From Syntrophales bacterium (lineage in GTDB: Bacteria > Desulfobacterota > Syntrophia > Syntrophales > UBA4778): DNA of 44,509 nucleotides. The notes under the pieces were generated by a model, which ran no database searches, was not told the DNA's origin, and worked only from the letters and a program-made list of their open reading frames with translations. The translations under genes and the position numbers were made by a program. The stretch lies in contig JAQTPK010000021.1 of NCBI GenBank assembly GCA_028712885.1, positions 1 to 44,509 of the forward strand, in the 5' to 3' direction. How positions within the stretch are numbered: the first letter of the stretch is position 1; each line of letters begins with the position of its first letter. Positions 27,239 through 43,465 of the stretch are shown here, piece after piece.

Positions 27239-28483
27239 TCAGACGTCGATGCTCGTCTGGGCATTCAGTCCGGCCTCGTCCCTCTTCTGATAAATGCCGA
27301 CGGGGTGCGCCCCCAGCGCTTCGAACCGGTAATCCTTTTTGAATTTGCCGATGTGCTCCCGGATAACCTCCTGCGAAGGTATGAATTTTTTGTTCACCAT
27401 TTTCTGATAAGCGAAATAGCGATGGTCCTTCGGCAGCTGATCCACCGGTACGAGATCGGTCCCGTTTGCCGTCAGGTTCACCTGGGTGGAGAGTATATCC
27501 CGGACATATTCCATCTGGGATTCCAGGATGAGCGGCGCGGGCAGCACTTCGGGAAGGAGTTCCTCCGGGTCTTTCTTCTGGTATTTTCTGAAAATCTCAC
27601 CGGCCTTCTGGAGATGGCCCAGTTCCATTTCGAGGCACATCTTCCAGATTTTCTTGATTGCCGGATCCGGCTCCTGCTGGACAAGGGAGTGGTAAAGCCA
27701 TACTTCGTGGTACTCGTGCATGACCAGCCTTTCAAACCAGTTCGGCTTCGGATCGCAGAGCGATTCGTACTGCGTGACGTGCTGCTCCTCGATCATGCCG
27801 ATTTCCTGATACAGTCCCCGTCCCACCGGATCAATGGGCCGGTTGAGTACGTTCATGTAATAGTTCATCGTCTGCTGTTCGGCGGCAACCAGCGTGCAGA
27901 TGTTGAGGGATGAAGCCGGGTCGGATTTCATGTCGACCGGTTTTCGCACGTCGTCGAAAGGATTCCTGTGCTCGGCGATGGTCGGCCGTCCCGGCATGAT
28001 CTCCGTCATCTTTCCGACGATCTTCTCGGCCTTTTTCCCCTCCAGTGTTTCCAGGAGGTTGGCGTAGCGGTAGAGATGGTCGAAATCTTCGAGCAGGCCG
28101 AAATCGAATATCTTCTTTACATAGGGGTCGGATTCCATTTTGGCGAGAGTCGCCGTCAGATCGACCGCGAGCTGCTCGTAGCCGATCGTATTTTCGATGA
28201 CGCTCTCGTCTCCCGGGATAAGACCGTTTACCATCTTCTGCTGCTCCTGTTCGATTTTGCGCGTCATTGCGACCTGCCGATTAAGGTCGATGTCCGCGCT
28301 GTGACGGGCGAATTCGTGCTTGAAAAGTGCTGCGTCCACTTCGATGCCGTTCATCAGGATCACCCGGCAGCGCGTGTACGGGTCCACTTCGTTCTTATTG
28401 TAGGGCTGCACGTTTACTTCCGGCCAGCTTTTGACCTGCTTCTCGATGGGCATTCCTTTTTCCTGAAAAGGCTTGAATTCCAT
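27239..28483 (-). CDS. double ferritin-like-fold protein of unknown function
   Basis: A 414-residue soluble, all-helical protein starting at ATG 28483 (AAAGGAGGCG upstream; the longer frame to 28585 adds an unlikely leader). Two tandem ferritin-like halves are suggested by paired carboxylate-His motifs. The first half has E57, E103 and LLEDFDHLYR (E132/H136). The second has AAEQQ (E202), EEQHVTQYE (E233/H235), HEYHEVW (H256-H259) and EMELGHLQKAGE (E285-H290). ExxH-type helices build di-iron sites in rubrerythrins and related oxidases. There is no signal and no rubredoxin domain. It may handle iron or peroxide/oxygen stress, or be an uncharacterised di-iron oxygenase. I recognise no named family. 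A palindrome in its promoter (28537-28553) points to dedicated regulation. Confidence 0.75.
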   Translation of the reverse strand: MEFKPFQEKGMPIEKQVKSWPEVNVQPYNKNEVDPYTRCRVILMNGIEVDAALFKHEFARHSADIDLNRQVAMTRKIEQEQQKMVNGLIPGDESVIENTIGYEQLAVDLTATLAKMESDPYVKKIFDFGLLEDFDHLYRYANLLETLEGKKAEKIVGKMTEIMPGRPTIAEHRNPFDDVRKPVDMKSDPASSLNICTLVAAEQQTMNYYMNVLNRPIDPVGRGLYQEIGMIEEQHVTQYESLCDPKPNWFERLVMHEYHEVWLYHSLVQQEPDPAIKKIWKMCLEMELGHLQKAGEIFRKYQKKDPEELLPEVLPAPLILESQMEYVRDILSTQVNLTANGTDLVPVDQLPKDHRYFAYQKMVNKKFIPSQEVIREHIGKFKKDYRFEALGAHPVGIYQKRDEAGLNAQTSIDV

Positions 28484-28536
28484 ATTCCGCCTCCTTTCCT
28501 CATATATTAGAAAAAAAAGTTTAATATACTTTGGTG

Positions 28537-28553
28537 AGACAAATAATTGGTCT
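28537..28553. promoter_or_regulatory. near-perfect 17-bp palindrome upstream of the ferritin-like gene
   Basis: AGACAAATAATTGGTCT has symmetric arms matching at 7 of 8 positions around a central A. It lies 54 bp before the start codon in an unusually AT-rich stretch, about 8 bp upstream of a possible minus-strand -10 box TATATT (28528-28523), so it would cover the -35 region. Its size and position suit a dimeric repressor or activator. The factor is unknown. Confidence 0.5.
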
Positions 28554-28718
28554 AATCTGTAGATTGAGACTGCCCATCGGAGCATTTGATATGCGGGAAA
28601 TATTAAACCTGAAGAGGACGGGGCAGCGCCCGGAGAGGACGGCAGGGCGGGGAACGGATTAATCGATTTTAAGATGGGGCGTCCGGTTTTCAGGAAAAGC
28701 CGGCTTCCGCAGCTTCTG

Positions 28719-35345: not shown

Positions 35346-35720
35346 ATGATGAGAGAATCCCGTTTTGAAGAGCAGAGGGAAATAATGGAGCTTCCCGCCC
35401 AAGGCATGGAATGGTTTCTGCAAGGGTTGGAAATGTATGTCAGGACAACCAGGTTCTGGATGAGAAGCCTGGAAAACATAAACTCTGCCCGGGAGGCGCG
35501 GACTGCTCCCCAGACTGCGTTCAGAAGCCTGCCGGATATCCCCGGATTCATTTCATGGGAGAAAGCGATCGGGAATTGGCAGCGTTGGGCGGTATTGCCA
35601 TGGTCAGGGATCCCATCCTCCGCCCTGGAAGAATGGGCGCGGTTCGCCCGGAACTGGGCGGAAGAATACGCCGGATCGGGACGGGTGACTTTCTGCATAT
35701 TTTATTCGCCCGAAGGCTGA
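35346..35720 (+). CDS. hypothetical Trp-rich protein, candidate PHA accessory protein
   Basis: A 124-residue protein without signal or membrane helix, rich in Trp, Glu and Arg: QGMEWFLQGLEMYVRTTRFWMRSL, then PGFISWEKAIGNWQRWAVLPW and ALEEWARFARNWAEEY. Amphipathic helices with regularly spaced Trp suggest a surface- or protein-binding role. It lies 162 bp before the KAS III-like gene on the same strand and the organisation ends in a PHA synthase, so it could be a phasin- or PhaE-like partner. No sequence motif proves that. The ATG at 35346 has AGAGGA upstream; a second ATG follows at once. Confidence 0.5.
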   Translation: MMRESRFEEQREIMELPAQGMEWFLQGLEMYVRTTRFWMRSLENINSAREARTAPQTAFRSLPDIPGFISWEKAIGNWQRWAVLPWSGIPSSALEEWARFARNWAEEYAGSGRVTFCIFYSPEG

Positions 35721-35882
35721 AATTTCCGGCTGTCGTTTTTTAAAGCTGAGCGCGGAAAAAGACGATATTACTGAAAAGACTGTTTTTTTTGGCTGATGAG
35801 GATGGAGTAGAAAGAAAAAGCCCGTCGGATGTGCGGCAGCGAAACAGGCGCGTTTCGATCTTCAATTCCAGCGGAGAGGCAA

Positions 35883-36863
35883 ATGATGAAAACTCTGGTC
35901 CATTCGACGGGAAGTTATTTGCCGAAAACCGTCCTCCGGAACGAGGAATTGACTCAGTTTTCCCGTGAAGCCGTCCGGCTGATCAGCGAGAAGACCGGCG
36001 TCCTTGCCCGGCGCGTGGCTTCCGAAGATGAATGCACCTCGGATCTGGCCGTGAAGGCCGCGGTCCGCTGCCTCGAAAAAGCGGGATTCCCGCCGGAAAA
36101 AGTTCAGTGCATAATGGTCTCCACATCTTCGCCCGACAGGACTCAGCCCGCCACGGCAACCCGCGTGCAGTTCCTGCTGGGAGCGGTTAACAGTTTTGCC
36201 TTTGACATCAATTCCGTGTGCTCCGGCAGCACGTTCGGGATTTCGCTCGCGGACTCCATGATCCGTTCGGGGCAGTGCGGGAACGTCCTCTTTATTGCGT
36301 CGGAAGTATACTCGCGCATCCTCAATAAGAATGATTTTTCCACTTACCCGTTCTTCGGGGACGGTGCGGGCGCCGTTCTTTTCCAGGCAGGAGACTCGAC
36401 TCCGAAAGGCGTCCTGCGTTCCTGTCTCATGACGGATGGAAGCACGCACGATGTAATCTGCGTTCCCGGCGGCGGAACGATGCTGCCCTACGAAAAAGTG
36501 GAATCTCAGCGCTCCCTCTATTTCAGAATGAAAGGTGAACGGGTGATGGCCTTCTCCATCGAGAGGGGCCCCGAGGTCATCAGAAAGGTCGCCGAAGAAA
36601 GCGGGACGGATCTTGAAGACATCCGCTGTATTCTCTGCCATCAGGCCAATATCAACATCATACGGCGGATTTCCGAGGATCTCGGGCTTCCCTTCGCCCG
36701 GTTTTTCGTAAACCTTTACAATTACGGGAACACCGCCAGCGCCTCGGTGCTGATCGCCCTGGACGAGGCCATTTCGGCGGGTGCGGTTTCGGAAGGCGAT
36801 CTCATCATAACAGTTTCTTTCGGAGGAGGGCTGTCCTGGGGGGCTAACCTCATCCGTATTTAG
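35883..36863 (+). CDS. beta-ketoacyl-ACP synthase III (FabH-like)
   Basis: A 326-residue thiolase-fold enzyme from ATG 35883 (GGAG 6 bases upstream). The catalytic triad is visible: Cys113 in NSVCSGSTFG, His253 in LCHQANINIIRR and Asn283 in NYGNTASAS. The closing SFGGGLSWGANLIRI is typical of KAS III. Such enzymes condense an acyl-CoA primer with malonyl-ACP to make 3-ketoacyl-ACP. It is separated by 129 bp from an ACP gene and by further tight overlaps from a PHA synthase and a malonyl transferase gene. It could be a dedicated enzyme of this operon or the housekeeping FabH; no other fatty-acid genes (fabG, fabF, plsX) are present. Confidence 0.9.
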   Translation: MMKTLVHSTGSYLPKTVLRNEELTQFSREAVRLISEKTGVLARRVASEDECTSDLAVKAAVRCLEKAGFPPEKVQCIMVSTSSPDRTQPATATRVQFLLGAVNSFAFDINSVCSGSTFGISLADSMIRSGQCGNVLFIASEVYSRILNKNDFSTYPFFGDGAGAVLFQAGDSTPKGVLRSCLMTDGSTHDVICVPGGGTMLPYEKVESQRSLYFRMKGERVMAFSIERGPEVIRKVAEESGTDLEDIRCILCHQANINIIRRISEDLGLPFARFFVNLYNYGNTASASVLIALDEAISAGAVSEGDLIITVSFGGGLSWGANLIRI

Positions 36864-36992
36864 TCCAGGCGTTCGGGGCATGATCGCCTCCTTCGGTTCA
36901 GAATTCAGTGCTATCCGGATTGCCGCATGGGCAGGCGGCAGACGGCGATTCTGGACCGGAACAGAGAGGCTCGACAAAAAAGGAGGGGGAAG

Positions 36993-37250
36993 ATGGGAGA
37001 TACTTTCAAAATTATCGCCAAGGGAATGAAGGATCTTTTCCCCGACATGGGCTCCGGGATCAGCCCGGATACCCGTCTCGGCGAAATTCCTGACTATGAT
37101 TCCATGGCCGCCGTCAATCTGCAGACGTATCTTGAAGAAACTTTCAAGGTGGCGATTCCGCTCGATCTGCTCGGAGAAGAGCTTACGATCAGGGAGCTGA
37201 TGGAGTACATCGAGCAGCCGGAAAAGCTGAAGACGGCGGAGGCAAGGTGA
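36993..37250 (+). CDS. acyl carrier protein
   Basis: An 85-residue acidic helical protein with the phosphopantetheine-attachment sequence DYDSMAAVNLQTYLEE, in which Ser41 or so would carry the arm. ATG 36993 is preceded by AAAGGAGGGGG. The usual DSL motif reads DSM here, a common variant in specialised carriers. It overlaps the PHA synthase start by 4 bases (GTGA, 37247-37250), so the two proteins are translated together. A dedicated ACP next to a polyester synthase is unusual. It may shuttle 3-ketoacyl or malonyl groups between the KAS III and the transferase. Confidence 0.9.
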   Translation: MGDTFKIIAKGMKDLFPDMGSGISPDTRLGEIPDYDSMAAVNLQTYLEETFKVAIPLDLLGEELTIRELMEYIEQPEKLKTAEAR

Positions 37251-38950
37251 AAGATACCGAACGAGAGATCCGGAAGGAGCGCGATCCCTTCGAGATCGGC
37301 ACTTCATTGATGGATGTGTACGTCGGGTGGGTTCAGAACGATCCGGCCGGCTTGAACCGGAAGCTGGCGGAACTTGCCGGCAGGTTTCATTCGGCCTGGC
37401 TGGAGGAATGGGACCGCTTTTCCGGTTTCATTTACGGAACCGGCGGCGACGGCGAGAGCGGGCAGGGAAAATTCCGGGAGTTTGTCGGAAACTACGGGCA
37501 ACTGGCCAGGAAATTCCATGGCGTTTTTGTGAATTGGACCCGCGAGTTCACGGCCGGCGCGCCGGGCGTCGACGACAGGACCAGGCTCCGCGCGCTCTTC
37601 TGGGCCGACCGTATCCTCCAATCCGTCGCGCCCGCGAATTTCTTCTGGACGAATCCGGGCGCCGTTCAGAAGTTCTTCGAAACCGAGGGGGACAGCCTGC
37701 TCCGCGGGCTGGAAAACAGGCTGGCCGATTTGAGAAAAGGCGAGTTCTGGGGGCGGATGGTGGACTCAACCGCTTTCAGAATCGGCGAAAATCTGGCGGC
37801 CACCCCCGGATCGGTCGTATTCCGCAACGAGCTGATGGAGCTGATCCAGTACGAGCCCGCCACCGACGAGACGTATTCCGTTCCGATCGTCTTCATCCAG
37901 CCCTGGGTGAACAAGTACTACGTTTTCGATCTCTGCAACGAATCGAGTTTCGTGCGCTACATGACGCGCAACGGCTATACCGTTTTTATCACGAGCTGGA
38001 AAAATCCGGACTCGGATATGGCCGGCATCCGGTTTGACGATTACATGCTGAGCGGCGCGCTGAAGGCGGTCGAGGTGGCCGGGGAAATATGCGGCGGCCG
38101 GAAAGTGCATGCCGCGGGATACTGCATCGGCGGGACCGTTCTGGCGTCGATGATGGCTTGGGCAAACCGGACTCTCCATGAATCCCGCGTCCCGGTCGTG
38201 GACTGGACTCTATTTTCTACATTGACCGATTTTTCCGAGCCCGGAGAACTGGGCGTATTCATGAGCGAGCCGGCCATCCAGGCGATCGAGGGCCTGATGC
38301 AGAAGAAGGGATACCTGGACAAGTTTTTCATCAGCTCGATCTTCCGGCTGCTGGGTTCGGAAAGCCTGATCTGGCGGAATTCCGTCCAGAATTATCTCTA
38401 TGGGGGGAGGCCTCCGAGGTCTGATATGCTCTTCTGGAACAATGACGGAACCCGCCTGCCGGAGGCCATGTGCTCTTTTTACCTCCGCAAATTATACCTG
38501 GAAAATAAACTGGCGGAAAAAGACGGGATCTCGCTGGGGGGAGCGCCCATCGATCTCGGAAAAATCCGGCAGCCGCTGTACGCGGTCGGCGCGCAGCAGG
38601 ATCACATCTGCCCCTGGAGAGGCACCTTTCTGACCTGCCGTCTTACCCGGTGTCCTGTTCGATACGTACTGACTTCGGAAGGTCACATTACGGGAATAGT
38701 GAATCCTCCTTCCGAGAGGTCGCGCAGGAAATACTGGGCCGGGGATTACGCCGGAGAGAATGATGCGGAAACATGGCTCTCCGGCCGGGATGAGAACAGG
38801 GGGTCCTGGTGGACGGACTGGCTGGAGTGGATGCAGGAGAGAAGCCTGCCCAAGACCGCCCCTCCGGCGATGGGCTCTTCGCTGTATCCTGTGCTCGGGA
38901 AAAGCCCCGGGAAATATGTCCTGCAGAACGGGACACCGGAGGGAGGATGA
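37247..38950 (+). CDS. phaC: polyhydroxyalkanoate synthase (PhaC, class I/II length)
   Basis: A 567-residue alpha/beta-hydrolase-fold polymerase. The lipase-box variant GYCIGGT holds the nucleophile Cys293. Asp452 (GAQQDHICPW) and His480 (SEGHITGIVNPPS) complete the triad, as in Ralstonia PhaC. VPIVFIQPWVNKYYVFDLC and FITSWKNPDSDMAG are PhaC signatures; the N-terminal half is the PhaC_N domain. It joins 3-hydroxyacyl-CoA units into polyester granules in the cytoplasm. The start is GTG 37247 with GGAGG upstream. It overlaps the ACP gene by 4 bases and the malonyltransferase gene by 4 bases. No phaA or phaB is present, so the monomer source is not the usual one. Confidence 0.92.
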   Translation: MKDTEREIRKERDPFEIGTSLMDVYVGWVQNDPAGLNRKLAELAGRFHSAWLEEWDRFSGFIYGTGGDGESGQGKFREFVGNYGQLARKFHGVFVNWTREFTAGAPGVDDRTRLRALFWADRILQSVAPANFFWTNPGAVQKFFETEGDSLLRGLENRLADLRKGEFWGRMVDSTAFRIGENLAATPGSVVFRNELMELIQYEPATDETYSVPIVFIQPWVNKYYVFDLCNESSFVRYMTRNGYTVFITSWKNPDSDMAGIRFDDYMLSGALKAVEVAGEICGGRKVHAAGYCIGGTVLASMMAWANRTLHESRVPVVDWTLFSTLTDFSEPGELGVFMSEPAIQAIEGLMQKKGYLDKFFISSIFRLLGSESLIWRNSVQNYLYGGRPPRSDMLFWNNDGTRLPEAMCSFYLRKLYLENKLAEKDGISLGGAPIDLGKIRQPLYAVGAQQDHICPWRGTFLTCRLTRCPVRYVLTSEGHITGIVNPPSERSRRKYWAGDYAGENDAETWLSGRDENRGSWWTDWLEWMQERSLPKTAPPAMGSSLYPVLGKSPGKYVLQNGTPEGG

Positions 38951-39897
38951 GCGGATTTGCGGTGATCTTTCCGGGTCAGGGCGTCCAGCACGTGGGAATG
39001 GGCACCGAGCTCTGCGCTGCATCCGAAAAAGCCCGGAAGGTCTTTTCGGACGCCGGCCGGGCCCTGGGAAGGGACATCGCCGGCCTGTGCCGGGAAGGAC
39101 CCAAATCGGAGCTAGACAGGACTGTTAATACTCAGATCACGGTGTTCCTCTGCAATATTGCCGCTTACGTCATTTTCCGCGAACTGGCAGGTTCGGATCC
39201 GCAGGCCGCGGCGGGACACAGTCTGGGAGAGTATGCGGCGATTTTCGCCGCCGGCGCCCTCGGCGCGGAGGAGCTCGCGGTTGTCGTCAGGGACCGCGGA
39301 GAAAGGCACGAAAGGGCTTTTCCTTCGGGTGCCGGAAAGATGGCGGCGATCATCGGCCTTGAGGAAGTAATCATTGCCCGCCTGTGCGCGGAGGCGTCAT
39401 CGGCGGCGGAGATAGTGGAAATGGCGAACCTCAACGCGGTCAACCAGACGGTCGTGTCCGGTCACGCGCCGGCGGTGGACCGGGTGCTCGAAGCCGCCGT
39501 GCAGGCGGGGGCGAAAAAAATCGCCGCCCTGCCGATCAGTGTTCCCTGTCATTCCAGTCTTATGGAGGAAGCCGCGCGCCTCTTCCGGGAGGATCTCGAT
39601 CGCGTTTCGTTCCGCGACTTCCGCATACCGGTGATTCCCAATTGCGATCCGGGCGCCCGCTACTCTCCGGAAACGGCAAAGAACCTTCTCTGGAAACAGA
39701 TCGTCTCGCCCGTCAGGTGGCACGAAACCGTCCGTCGCATGGCCTACATGGGCATCGATACAATCGTGGAGATAGGTCCGAAGAAGGTGTTATCCGGTCT
39801 TATTCCCGCCATCGATAAACGCGTCCGGCCGCTGTACGGCGGCAATGACGCAGCCTCTCTTGAAAAGTGCGCGGAAGCCGTCAGGGGCTCAGTTTAG
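38947..39897 (+). CDS. fabD: malonyl-CoA:ACP transacylase (FabD-like)
   Basis: A 316-residue acyltransferase from ATG 38947, which overlaps the PHA synthase stop (ATGA); a longer upstream frame is a shadow of phaC. The opening FAVIFPGQGVQHVGMG, nucleophile Ser92 in GHSLGEYAA, catalytic His202 in ISVPCHSSLMEEAA and IEIGPKKVLSGL-like end VEIGPKKVLSGLIP mark a malonyl-CoA:ACP transacylase. It loads malonyl groups onto the neighbouring ACP, which the KAS III can then use. It could be either the cell's fabD or a dedicated copy; coupling to phaC suggests the latter. Nothing clearly follows it in the operon. Confidence 0.92.
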   Translation: MSGFAVIFPGQGVQHVGMGTELCAASEKARKVFSDAGRALGRDIAGLCREGPKSELDRTVNTQITVFLCNIAAYVIFRELAGSDPQAAAGHSLGEYAAIFAAGALGAEELAVVVRDRGERHERAFPSGAGKMAAIIGLEEVIIARLCAEASSAAEIVEMANLNAVNQTVVSGHAPAVDRVLEAAVQAGAKKIAALPISVPCHSSLMEEAARLFREDLDRVSFRDFRIPVIPNCDPGARYSPETAKNLLWKQIVSPVRWHETVRRMAYMGIDTIVEIGPKKVLSGLIPAIDKRVRPLYGGNDAASLEKCAEAVRGSV

Positions 39898-43108: not shown

Positions 43109-43465
43109 ATGGCGAAGACGAAGAAGGGCGATAAGTTCACGTGCGACGTTTGCGGTCTCGTCGTAACAGTCGATGAGGCGTGCGGCTGTGCAACCGAAGA
43201 GATCCTCTGCTGCGACGTTCCGATGTTGAAGGGAAAAGCCGCTGCGAACAAGGCGAAGAAGAAAGCCGCGAAAAAGGCCCCGGCGAAAAAAGCCGCCCGG
43301 AAGCCGGCAAAGAAAGTCACGGCGAAAAAGACCGTGAAGAAAGCCGCCGCAAAGAAGGCGCCGGCGAAGAAGACGAAAAAGGCTCCGGCAAAAAAGACGA
43401 AGAAAGCTCCGGCGAAGAATACCGCCGGGAAAAAAGCGAAGAAGACTGCCCCCGGGAAGCGCTGA
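43109..43465 (+). CDS. desulforedoxin-like domain fused to histone H1-like Lys/Ala tail
   Basis: A 118-residue protein in two parts. Residues 8-40 (FTCDVCGLVVTVDEACGC, then EILCCDVPM) match desulforedoxin: C-x2-C at 12/15 and the adjacent Cys pair 34/35 that bind Fe or Zn. Two extra Cys at 25 and 27 replace the usual glycine region. Residues 41-118 are a low-complexity tail of KKAAKKAPAKK and TKKAPAKK units, as in bacterial histone H1-like proteins that bind DNA. The ATG follows GAGGAGAC. A strong terminator follows. A metal or redox site joined to a DNA-binding tail is not a family I know by name. Function is unknown; the tail is likely nucleic-acid binding. Confidence 0.8.
   Translation: MAKTKKGDKFTCDVCGLVVTVDEACGCATEEILCCDVPMLKGKAAANKAKKKAAKKAPAKKAARKPAKKVTAKKTVKKAAAKKAPAKKTKKAPAKKTKKAPAKNTAGKKAKKTAPGKR

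Follow-up and report, generated by a model that had tools for sequence, protein, structure and literature searches.

A conserved cluster joining a PHA synthase to its own KAS III, acyl carrier protein, and FabD in Syntrophales: a candidate malonyl-fed polyester unit

Polyhydroxyalkanoate (PHA) synthases are taken to be enzymes of CoA thioesters, and it is generally assumed that only a transacylase such as PhaG can connect them to fatty acid synthesis. Overexpression of fabH or fabD is reported to supply polyhydroxybutyrate (PHB) monomer in Escherichia coli (Taguchi 1999, as cited in PMC8357295), and a malonyl-CoA route to PHB through NphT7 has been described (PMC10530661). Here, we examine a gene cluster of a Syntrophales bacterium in which a PHA synthase gene (phaC) stands with genes for a 3-ketoacyl-acyl carrier protein synthase III (KAS III), an acyl carrier protein (ACP), and a malonyl-CoA:ACP transacylase (FabD). 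The cluster lies in a stretch of 44,509 nucleotides, which we call the window (contig JAQTPK010000021.1 of assembly GCA_028712885.1). A first-pass annotation of the window had described these four genes in this order, with 4-bp overlaps at ACP/phaC and phaC/fabD and intact catalytic residues in each product. Order, strand, and reading frames are borne out by the sequence, both overlaps (GTGA and ATGA, respectively) are present, and residue alignments found the catalytic residues in place in all four proteins. A native PhaC with its own ACP and KAS III block makes the CoA-thioester assumption directly testable. The cluster comprises the following features.

35886–36863, + strand: KAS III of a specialised subfamily, 325 residues (Pfam and NCBIfam matches, residue tables)
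36993–37250, + strand: dedicated ACP, 85 residues (PF00550 match, family alignment, helix II comparison)
37247–37250, + strand: GTGA shared by the ACP and PhaC genes, holding the stop of the first and the start of the second (sequence)
37247–38950, + strand: PHA synthase PhaC, class I-like, 567 residues, GTG start (PhaC_N, TIGR01838, alignment, tree, Protein Data Bank (PDB))
38947–38950, + strand: ATGA shared by the PhaC and FabD genes, holding the stop of the first and the start of the second (sequence)
38947–39897, + strand: FabD, malonyl-CoA:ACP transacylase, 316 residues (TIGR00128, active-site residues)

The cluster is probably, though by no means certainly, a self-contained unit for monomer supply and polymerisation, in which a second PHA synthase would be fed by a private supply of ACP-borne hydroxyacyl groups. 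The Pfam families represented are ACP_syn_III/ACP_syn_III_C, PP-binding, PhaC_N, and Acyl_transf_1. The two 4-bp overlaps suggest coupling of ACP to phaC and of phaC to fabD; the KAS III and ACP genes are 129 bp apart, so coupling would not be continuous across the cluster. Scanning the locus for promoters and terminators gave no signal exceeding that of shuffled sequence.

The first-pass annotation had proposed a search for the same gene order in other genomes, and this search found KAS III, ACP, and PhaC in that order in 14 independent public loci (L065–L074, L076, L077, L084, and L096) from metagenome-assembled genomes (MAGs) and assemblies of Syntrophaceae, Syntrophobacteraceae, Desulfobacterales, and Desulfarculales (Thermodesulfobacteriota), as well as in further genomes of the order. 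FabD then follows PhaC in most Syntrophales loci. Among 155 genomes of the order, 22 carry the cluster-type ACP and 16 the cluster-type PhaC; one genome (G530) gave a partial PhaC match and no ACP match. A search of the whole phylum for the ACP, at a strict threshold that would miss diverged copies (L073, L077, and L084 among them), returned matches confined to the same order. The tightest join is that between ACP and PhaC, whose genes range in most loci from a 4-bp overlap to a spacing of about 10 bp. Across 18 loci, pairwise distances of KAS III and PhaC were strongly correlated (r = 0.954; none of 5000 permutations as high). A chance neighbourhood was rejected on the strength of the recurring gene order and co-inheritance. 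Two further features were noted near these clusters. In one subgroup, a conserved protein of 79 residues (LLVEDLHTGELIVERANGEKW...) with no Pfam match is encoded immediately upstream of KAS III (L066:8200–8439, L067:8062–8301, L068:541–780, and L070:8198–8437), and at L084:3837–7762 a DUF3141 protein and a distant PhaC-like hydrolase lie immediately upstream of the KAS III-ACP-PhaC cluster.

The PhaC of the window retains its Cys293-Asp452-His480 triad, matches PhaC_N at 155.8 bits, and matches solved PhaC structures in PDB; its nearest relative comes from a Syntrophaceae MAG of the same family. The best class model is TIGR01838 (class I PHA synthase), at 515 bits and hence under the cut-off of 622.65, a cut-off also missed by other class I-like PhaCs (531–541 bits in the same order, 597 in Competibacteraceae); six relatives of the window protein score 492–588 bits. 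Class III synthases consist of a short PhaC (about 40 kDa) and a PhaE subunit. The window protein does not fit that class, having 567 residues, no adjacent PhaE, and 92 bits on TIGR01836 versus 365. In a tree of 90 PhaCs, the 20 cluster sequences formed one clade (Shimodaira–Hasegawa-like approximate likelihood ratio test 100), with KAS III and ACP both seen for 18 of them, the exceptions being L075 and L078, the latter of which begins at a contig edge. The nearest PhaCs outside the clade are beta- and gammaproteobacterial, without KAS III and ACP nearby. The catalytic triad motifs (GYCxG, DH, and GH) are kept in all 20 clade members, and the catalytic histidine has distinctive flanks. Two residues before it (position 478) the window protein has Glu, and Glu or Asp occupies this position in 20/20 of the clade and 0/70 of the other sequences; two residues after it (position 482) the window protein has Thr, with Thr or Ser in 18/20 of the clade, Ala in the remaining 2/20, and Thr or Ser in 0/70 of the others. 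Position 482 corresponds to Ala510 of Cupriavidus necator, a conserved alanine that the window protein does not have. In an engineered synthase, changing the Ala510 position to Thr or Ser increased the content of 3-hydroxyhexanoate (C6) (PMC9760699), so it is a reasonable guess that the clade PhaCs may make longer monomers.

The KAS III and ACP of the cluster have both diverged from their housekeeping counterparts. Window KAS III has an intact Cys112/His252/Asn282 triad, and the Cys-His-Asn residues and FGG loop are kept in 19/19 cluster KAS IIIs. On TIGR00747, the FabH model, it scores 274 bits, under the cut-off of 292.1, which one cluster member (G027) exceeds. We compared residues against E. 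coli FabH and FabHs of the phylum, leaving out the antisense row L231. In the window protein, W32 and R151 of FabH are replaced by L and F, and R249 by N; all three positions are changed in 19/19 cluster KAS IIIs, while W32 and R249 are kept in 14/14 canonical FabHs of the same phylum, in which position 151 is Arg or Lys. Arg249 is presumably the main ACP-docking residue of FabH, and position 87 (E. coli numbering), which we take to limit primer length, is Gln in all 19 cluster proteins. Trp32 and Arg151 of FabH stack on the CoA adenine (PMC4606726). The window ACP carries the phosphopantetheine Ser37 in DSMAAVNLQ and matches PF00550 (PP-binding) weakly, at 25.7 bits versus a cut-off of 20.8; on acyl_carrier models it reaches 15.3 bits versus a cut-off of 70.45, and it does not qualify as a housekeeping AcpP. 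Relative to E. coli AcpP, its helix II has D38A and E41N. Cluster ACPs (L065, out of frame, was left out of this comparison) carry Ala, Thr, or Ser at position 38 and always Asn at position 41; in AcpP, as in this genome's housekeeping ACP, these positions are Asp and Glu, respectively. The matched loss of charge in KAS III and ACP is suggestive, being the pattern that a private pair would be expected to show.

Downstream of PhaC, the cluster occurs in two versions. FabD of the window scores 265 bits on TIGR00128, over the cut-off of 260.9, and its Ser-Arg-His-Gln active site is intact, including the Arg of malonyl-type transferases. At L073, L074, L075, and L077, a short-chain dehydrogenase/reductase (SDR) follows PhaC instead; these SDRs score best as 3-ketoacyl-ACP reductase and clearly lower as acetoacetyl-CoA reductase, with that of L074 over the cut-off. 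This reductase version is found in Desulfarculales, Syntrophobacteraceae, and one Desulfobacterales, and at L077 a PhaR-type PHA regulator is encoded upstream. Combined, the FabD and reductase versions make up a complete route from malonyl-CoA to 3-hydroxyacyl-ACP, followed by polymerisation. Along this route, FabD, with its intact family signature, would charge the cluster ACP with malonate taken from malonyl-CoA, and KAS III, with Cys-His-Asn kept, would join an acyl primer to malonyl-ACP to give 3-ketoacyl-ACP. A 3-ketoacyl-ACP reductase, encoded next to PhaC in the reductase-version loci and probably supplied in trans by FabG in this genome, would then yield (R)-3-hydroxyacyl-ACP. PhaC would polymerise the 3-hydroxyacyl groups, either from ACP directly or after their move to CoA. 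We infer every catalytic step, and the contact among KAS III, ACP, and PhaC, from sequence. The earlier suggestion of a polyester built from malonyl-derived chains stands in part, insofar as gene order and co-inheritance tie a dedicated malonyl- and ACP-based supply to the PHA synthase.

We then considered the cluster against the rest of its genome, which comprises 2.93 Mb in 97 contigs, is 99% complete, and includes the window as contig C24. The first-pass annotation had asked whether fabH, fabD, and acpP of the cluster have separate housekeeping counterparts, since sole copies would make the cluster a primary fatty acid operon. Further copies of fabD and acpP are present on other contigs, among them C33, which carries a housekeeping fabD-fabG-acpP-fabF block. 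For fabH the answer is subtler. The C33 block contains no fabH, and cluster KAS III is the top match to TIGR00747 in the genome, above the other KAS IIIs (two on C56 and one on C11). Among 60 related genomes, FabH-model matches of cluster strength occur in 13, of which 10 have the PhaC cluster and 3 have the KAS III-ACP pair elsewhere. Complete copies of the cluster-type KAS III score about 266–307 bits, and the cluster copy of G045 is partial (187 bits). The other 47 genomes lack the KAS III-ACP pair, and their best KAS III, of the distant C11 type, scores ≤154 bits; cluster KAS III thus appears dispensable for growth and primary fatty acid synthesis in most of the order. The absence of a PhaA/PhaB-type gene, also remarked on earlier, holds at the cluster itself and not genome-wide, as seven thiolases over the cut-off and FabG/SDRs are encoded elsewhere. 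A class III phaEC, accompanied by a PhaR-type regulator, is encoded separately on C15. Given this phaEC, the thiolases, and the C33 fab genes, conventional PHA synthesis would be possible in principle without the cluster. As separate observations, most genomes of the order have no high-scoring FabH and a divergent C11-type KAS III alone; in this genome, the C11-type KAS III adjoins FabF, FabZ, ACP, and FabD. On C56 (L060:4822–8922), two tandem KAS IIIs occur with an ACP-like gene, an SDR, and a FabD-like gene, next to genes resembling a sugar acetyltransferase and a deacetylase.

The same KAS III-ACP pair is also found without PhaC, in G008, G040, G054, G487, and G488; loci with the pair and no PhaC include L180:8643–14277, L178:9396–10673, L179:618–2995, and L196. 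Neighbouring genes, where read, include those for an MMPL-type protein and a family 2 glycosyltransferase, and G054 also has a 4HBT thioesterase. At L179 and L180, the family 2 glycosyltransferase and an MMPL/methyltransferase protein adjoin the pair, L180 includes the 4HBT thioesterase, and a B12 radical SAM gene is near. In this order, these loci may represent a lipid or metabolite cluster that has yet to be described. Since the pair also occurs without PhaC, KAS III-ACP is a module, combined with PhaC in one lineage and with different enzymes in another.

We propose, tentatively and with some doubt, that PhaC would draw 3-hydroxyacyl groups directly from the dedicated ACP, with KAS III, ACP, and PhaC co-adapted, driven by malonyl and independent of the CoA-thioester route. 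The main rival to the favoured reading is that KAS III, ACP, and FabD supply hydroxyacyl groups which another enzyme moves to CoA, leaving PhaC as an ordinary CoA-dependent enzyme with no ACP docking. Known PHA synthases do use CoA thioesters and reach fatty acid synthesis through PhaG (PMC8357295), and the fold and triad of this PhaC are of the class I type; the cluster has no conserved gene for a transacylase or ligase, however, and the tight ACP-PhaC pair persists at L075 without KAS III. We regard such a transfer as unlikely. It is quite improbable that PhaC instead transfers acyl or oligoester groups in the making of an envelope lipid or secondary metabolite, that KAS III-ACP makes its acyl unit, and that no storage polymer is formed. 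This would suit the thioesterase, glycosyltransferase, and MMPL-type neighbours of the sister pairs, the other PHA synthases already carried by genomes like this one, and the clade-specific changes in the PhaC active site. Against it, the PhaC version has no linked glycosyltransferase or exporter, the regulator upstream in L077 is PhaR, and the PhaC catalytic residues are kept in every clade member. Ordinary fatty acid genes beside phaC by happenstance would be a very improbable explanation. FabD and KAS III do belong to fatty acid families, and no protein of the genome matches the FabH model better than this KAS III, but several orders share the conserved block, its PhaCs form a clade of their own, and its KAS III has lost the FabH hallmark residues. 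The separate C33 block and the absence of such a KAS III from the 47 relatives without the pair led us to reject a primary fatty acid operon.

For a self-contained unit with its own ACP-borne supply, the reported supply of PHB monomer by overexpressed fabH or fabD in E. coli may be counted in favour. Several points weigh on the other side. PHA synthases are described as CoA-substrate enzymes (for class II, in PMC8357295), and synteny may mean co-regulation rather than a common substrate. No reductase adjoins the cluster in this genome; both FabD and reductase are missing from the surroundings at L050, L051, and L084; and L075 has ACP-PhaC-reductase and no KAS III on its contig. KAS III-ACP is a general module, found also beside a glycosyltransferase and an MMPL-type exporter, and nearly all source sequences are MAGs. 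Should polymer be made from ACP-bound units, the cluster would provide a route to bioplastic that is driven by decarboxylation and in which monomer length might be controlled. Its presence in some uncultured syntrophic bacteria suggests an undescribed malonyl-fed polyester synthesis, as a prediction from gene content and residues.

Other features of the window are listed here.

35346–35720, + strand: upstream Trp-rich open reading frame (ORF), 124 residues, a doubtful member of the cluster that may not be a gene
27239–28585, − strand: protein of 448 residues with no Pfam match (412 residues tested)
43109–43465: small Cys-containing N-terminal domain, then a long Lys/Ala-rich tail (AKK repeat), histone H1-like

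The Trp-rich ORF had been put forward as a phasin- or PhaE-like partner of PhaC. We rejected this assignment and do not count the ORF in the unit because profile searches gave no family match, no related locus holds a relative, the coding score is weak, and the predicted structure is of low confidence and uninformative (predicted local distance difference test score of 42).

Finally, we compared the cluster with described systems. The class I PhaC of C. necator shares with the cluster protein its fold family, Cys-Asp-His triad, single-subunit length, and best class model, TIGR01838. It differs in that the cluster has its own ACP and KAS III where phaA and phaB would be expected, and in that the cluster protein falls under the TIGR01838 cut-off, with Glu/Asp and Thr flanking the catalytic His. 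NphT7, which we take to be a KAS III-type enzyme, likewise condenses malonyl and acyl units in place of a thiolase; it uses CoA thioesters, whereas the cluster encodes FabD and an ACP, and its KAS III lacks the FabH adenine clamp. In PhaG-linked medium-chain-length PHA synthesis, ACP-bound fatty acid intermediates are also tied to PHA, but PhaG shifts 3-hydroxyacyl groups from ACP to CoA, and the cluster has no conserved gene of this kind. E. coli FabH, FabD, and AcpP are homologous enzymes with catalytic residues kept, from which the cluster proteins depart through loss of W32, R151, R249, and K256/K257 in KAS III and of D38 and E41 in ACP. In the E. coli work credited to Taguchi 1999, a PHA synthase is likewise supplied by the FabH and FabD families; there, overexpression of housekeeping genes was engineered, whereas the gene block described here is native and conserved and has an ACP of its own. 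In the open-access papers searched, we found no described phaC-fabH-acpP-fabD block. The pieces, namely class I PhaC, FabD, KAS III, ACP, engineered fabH/fabD supply, and the NphT7 route, are already known. What is new, as far as the open-access papers searched show, is a native and conserved block with its own ACP, a KAS III without FabH hallmarks, and a single clade of PhaC.

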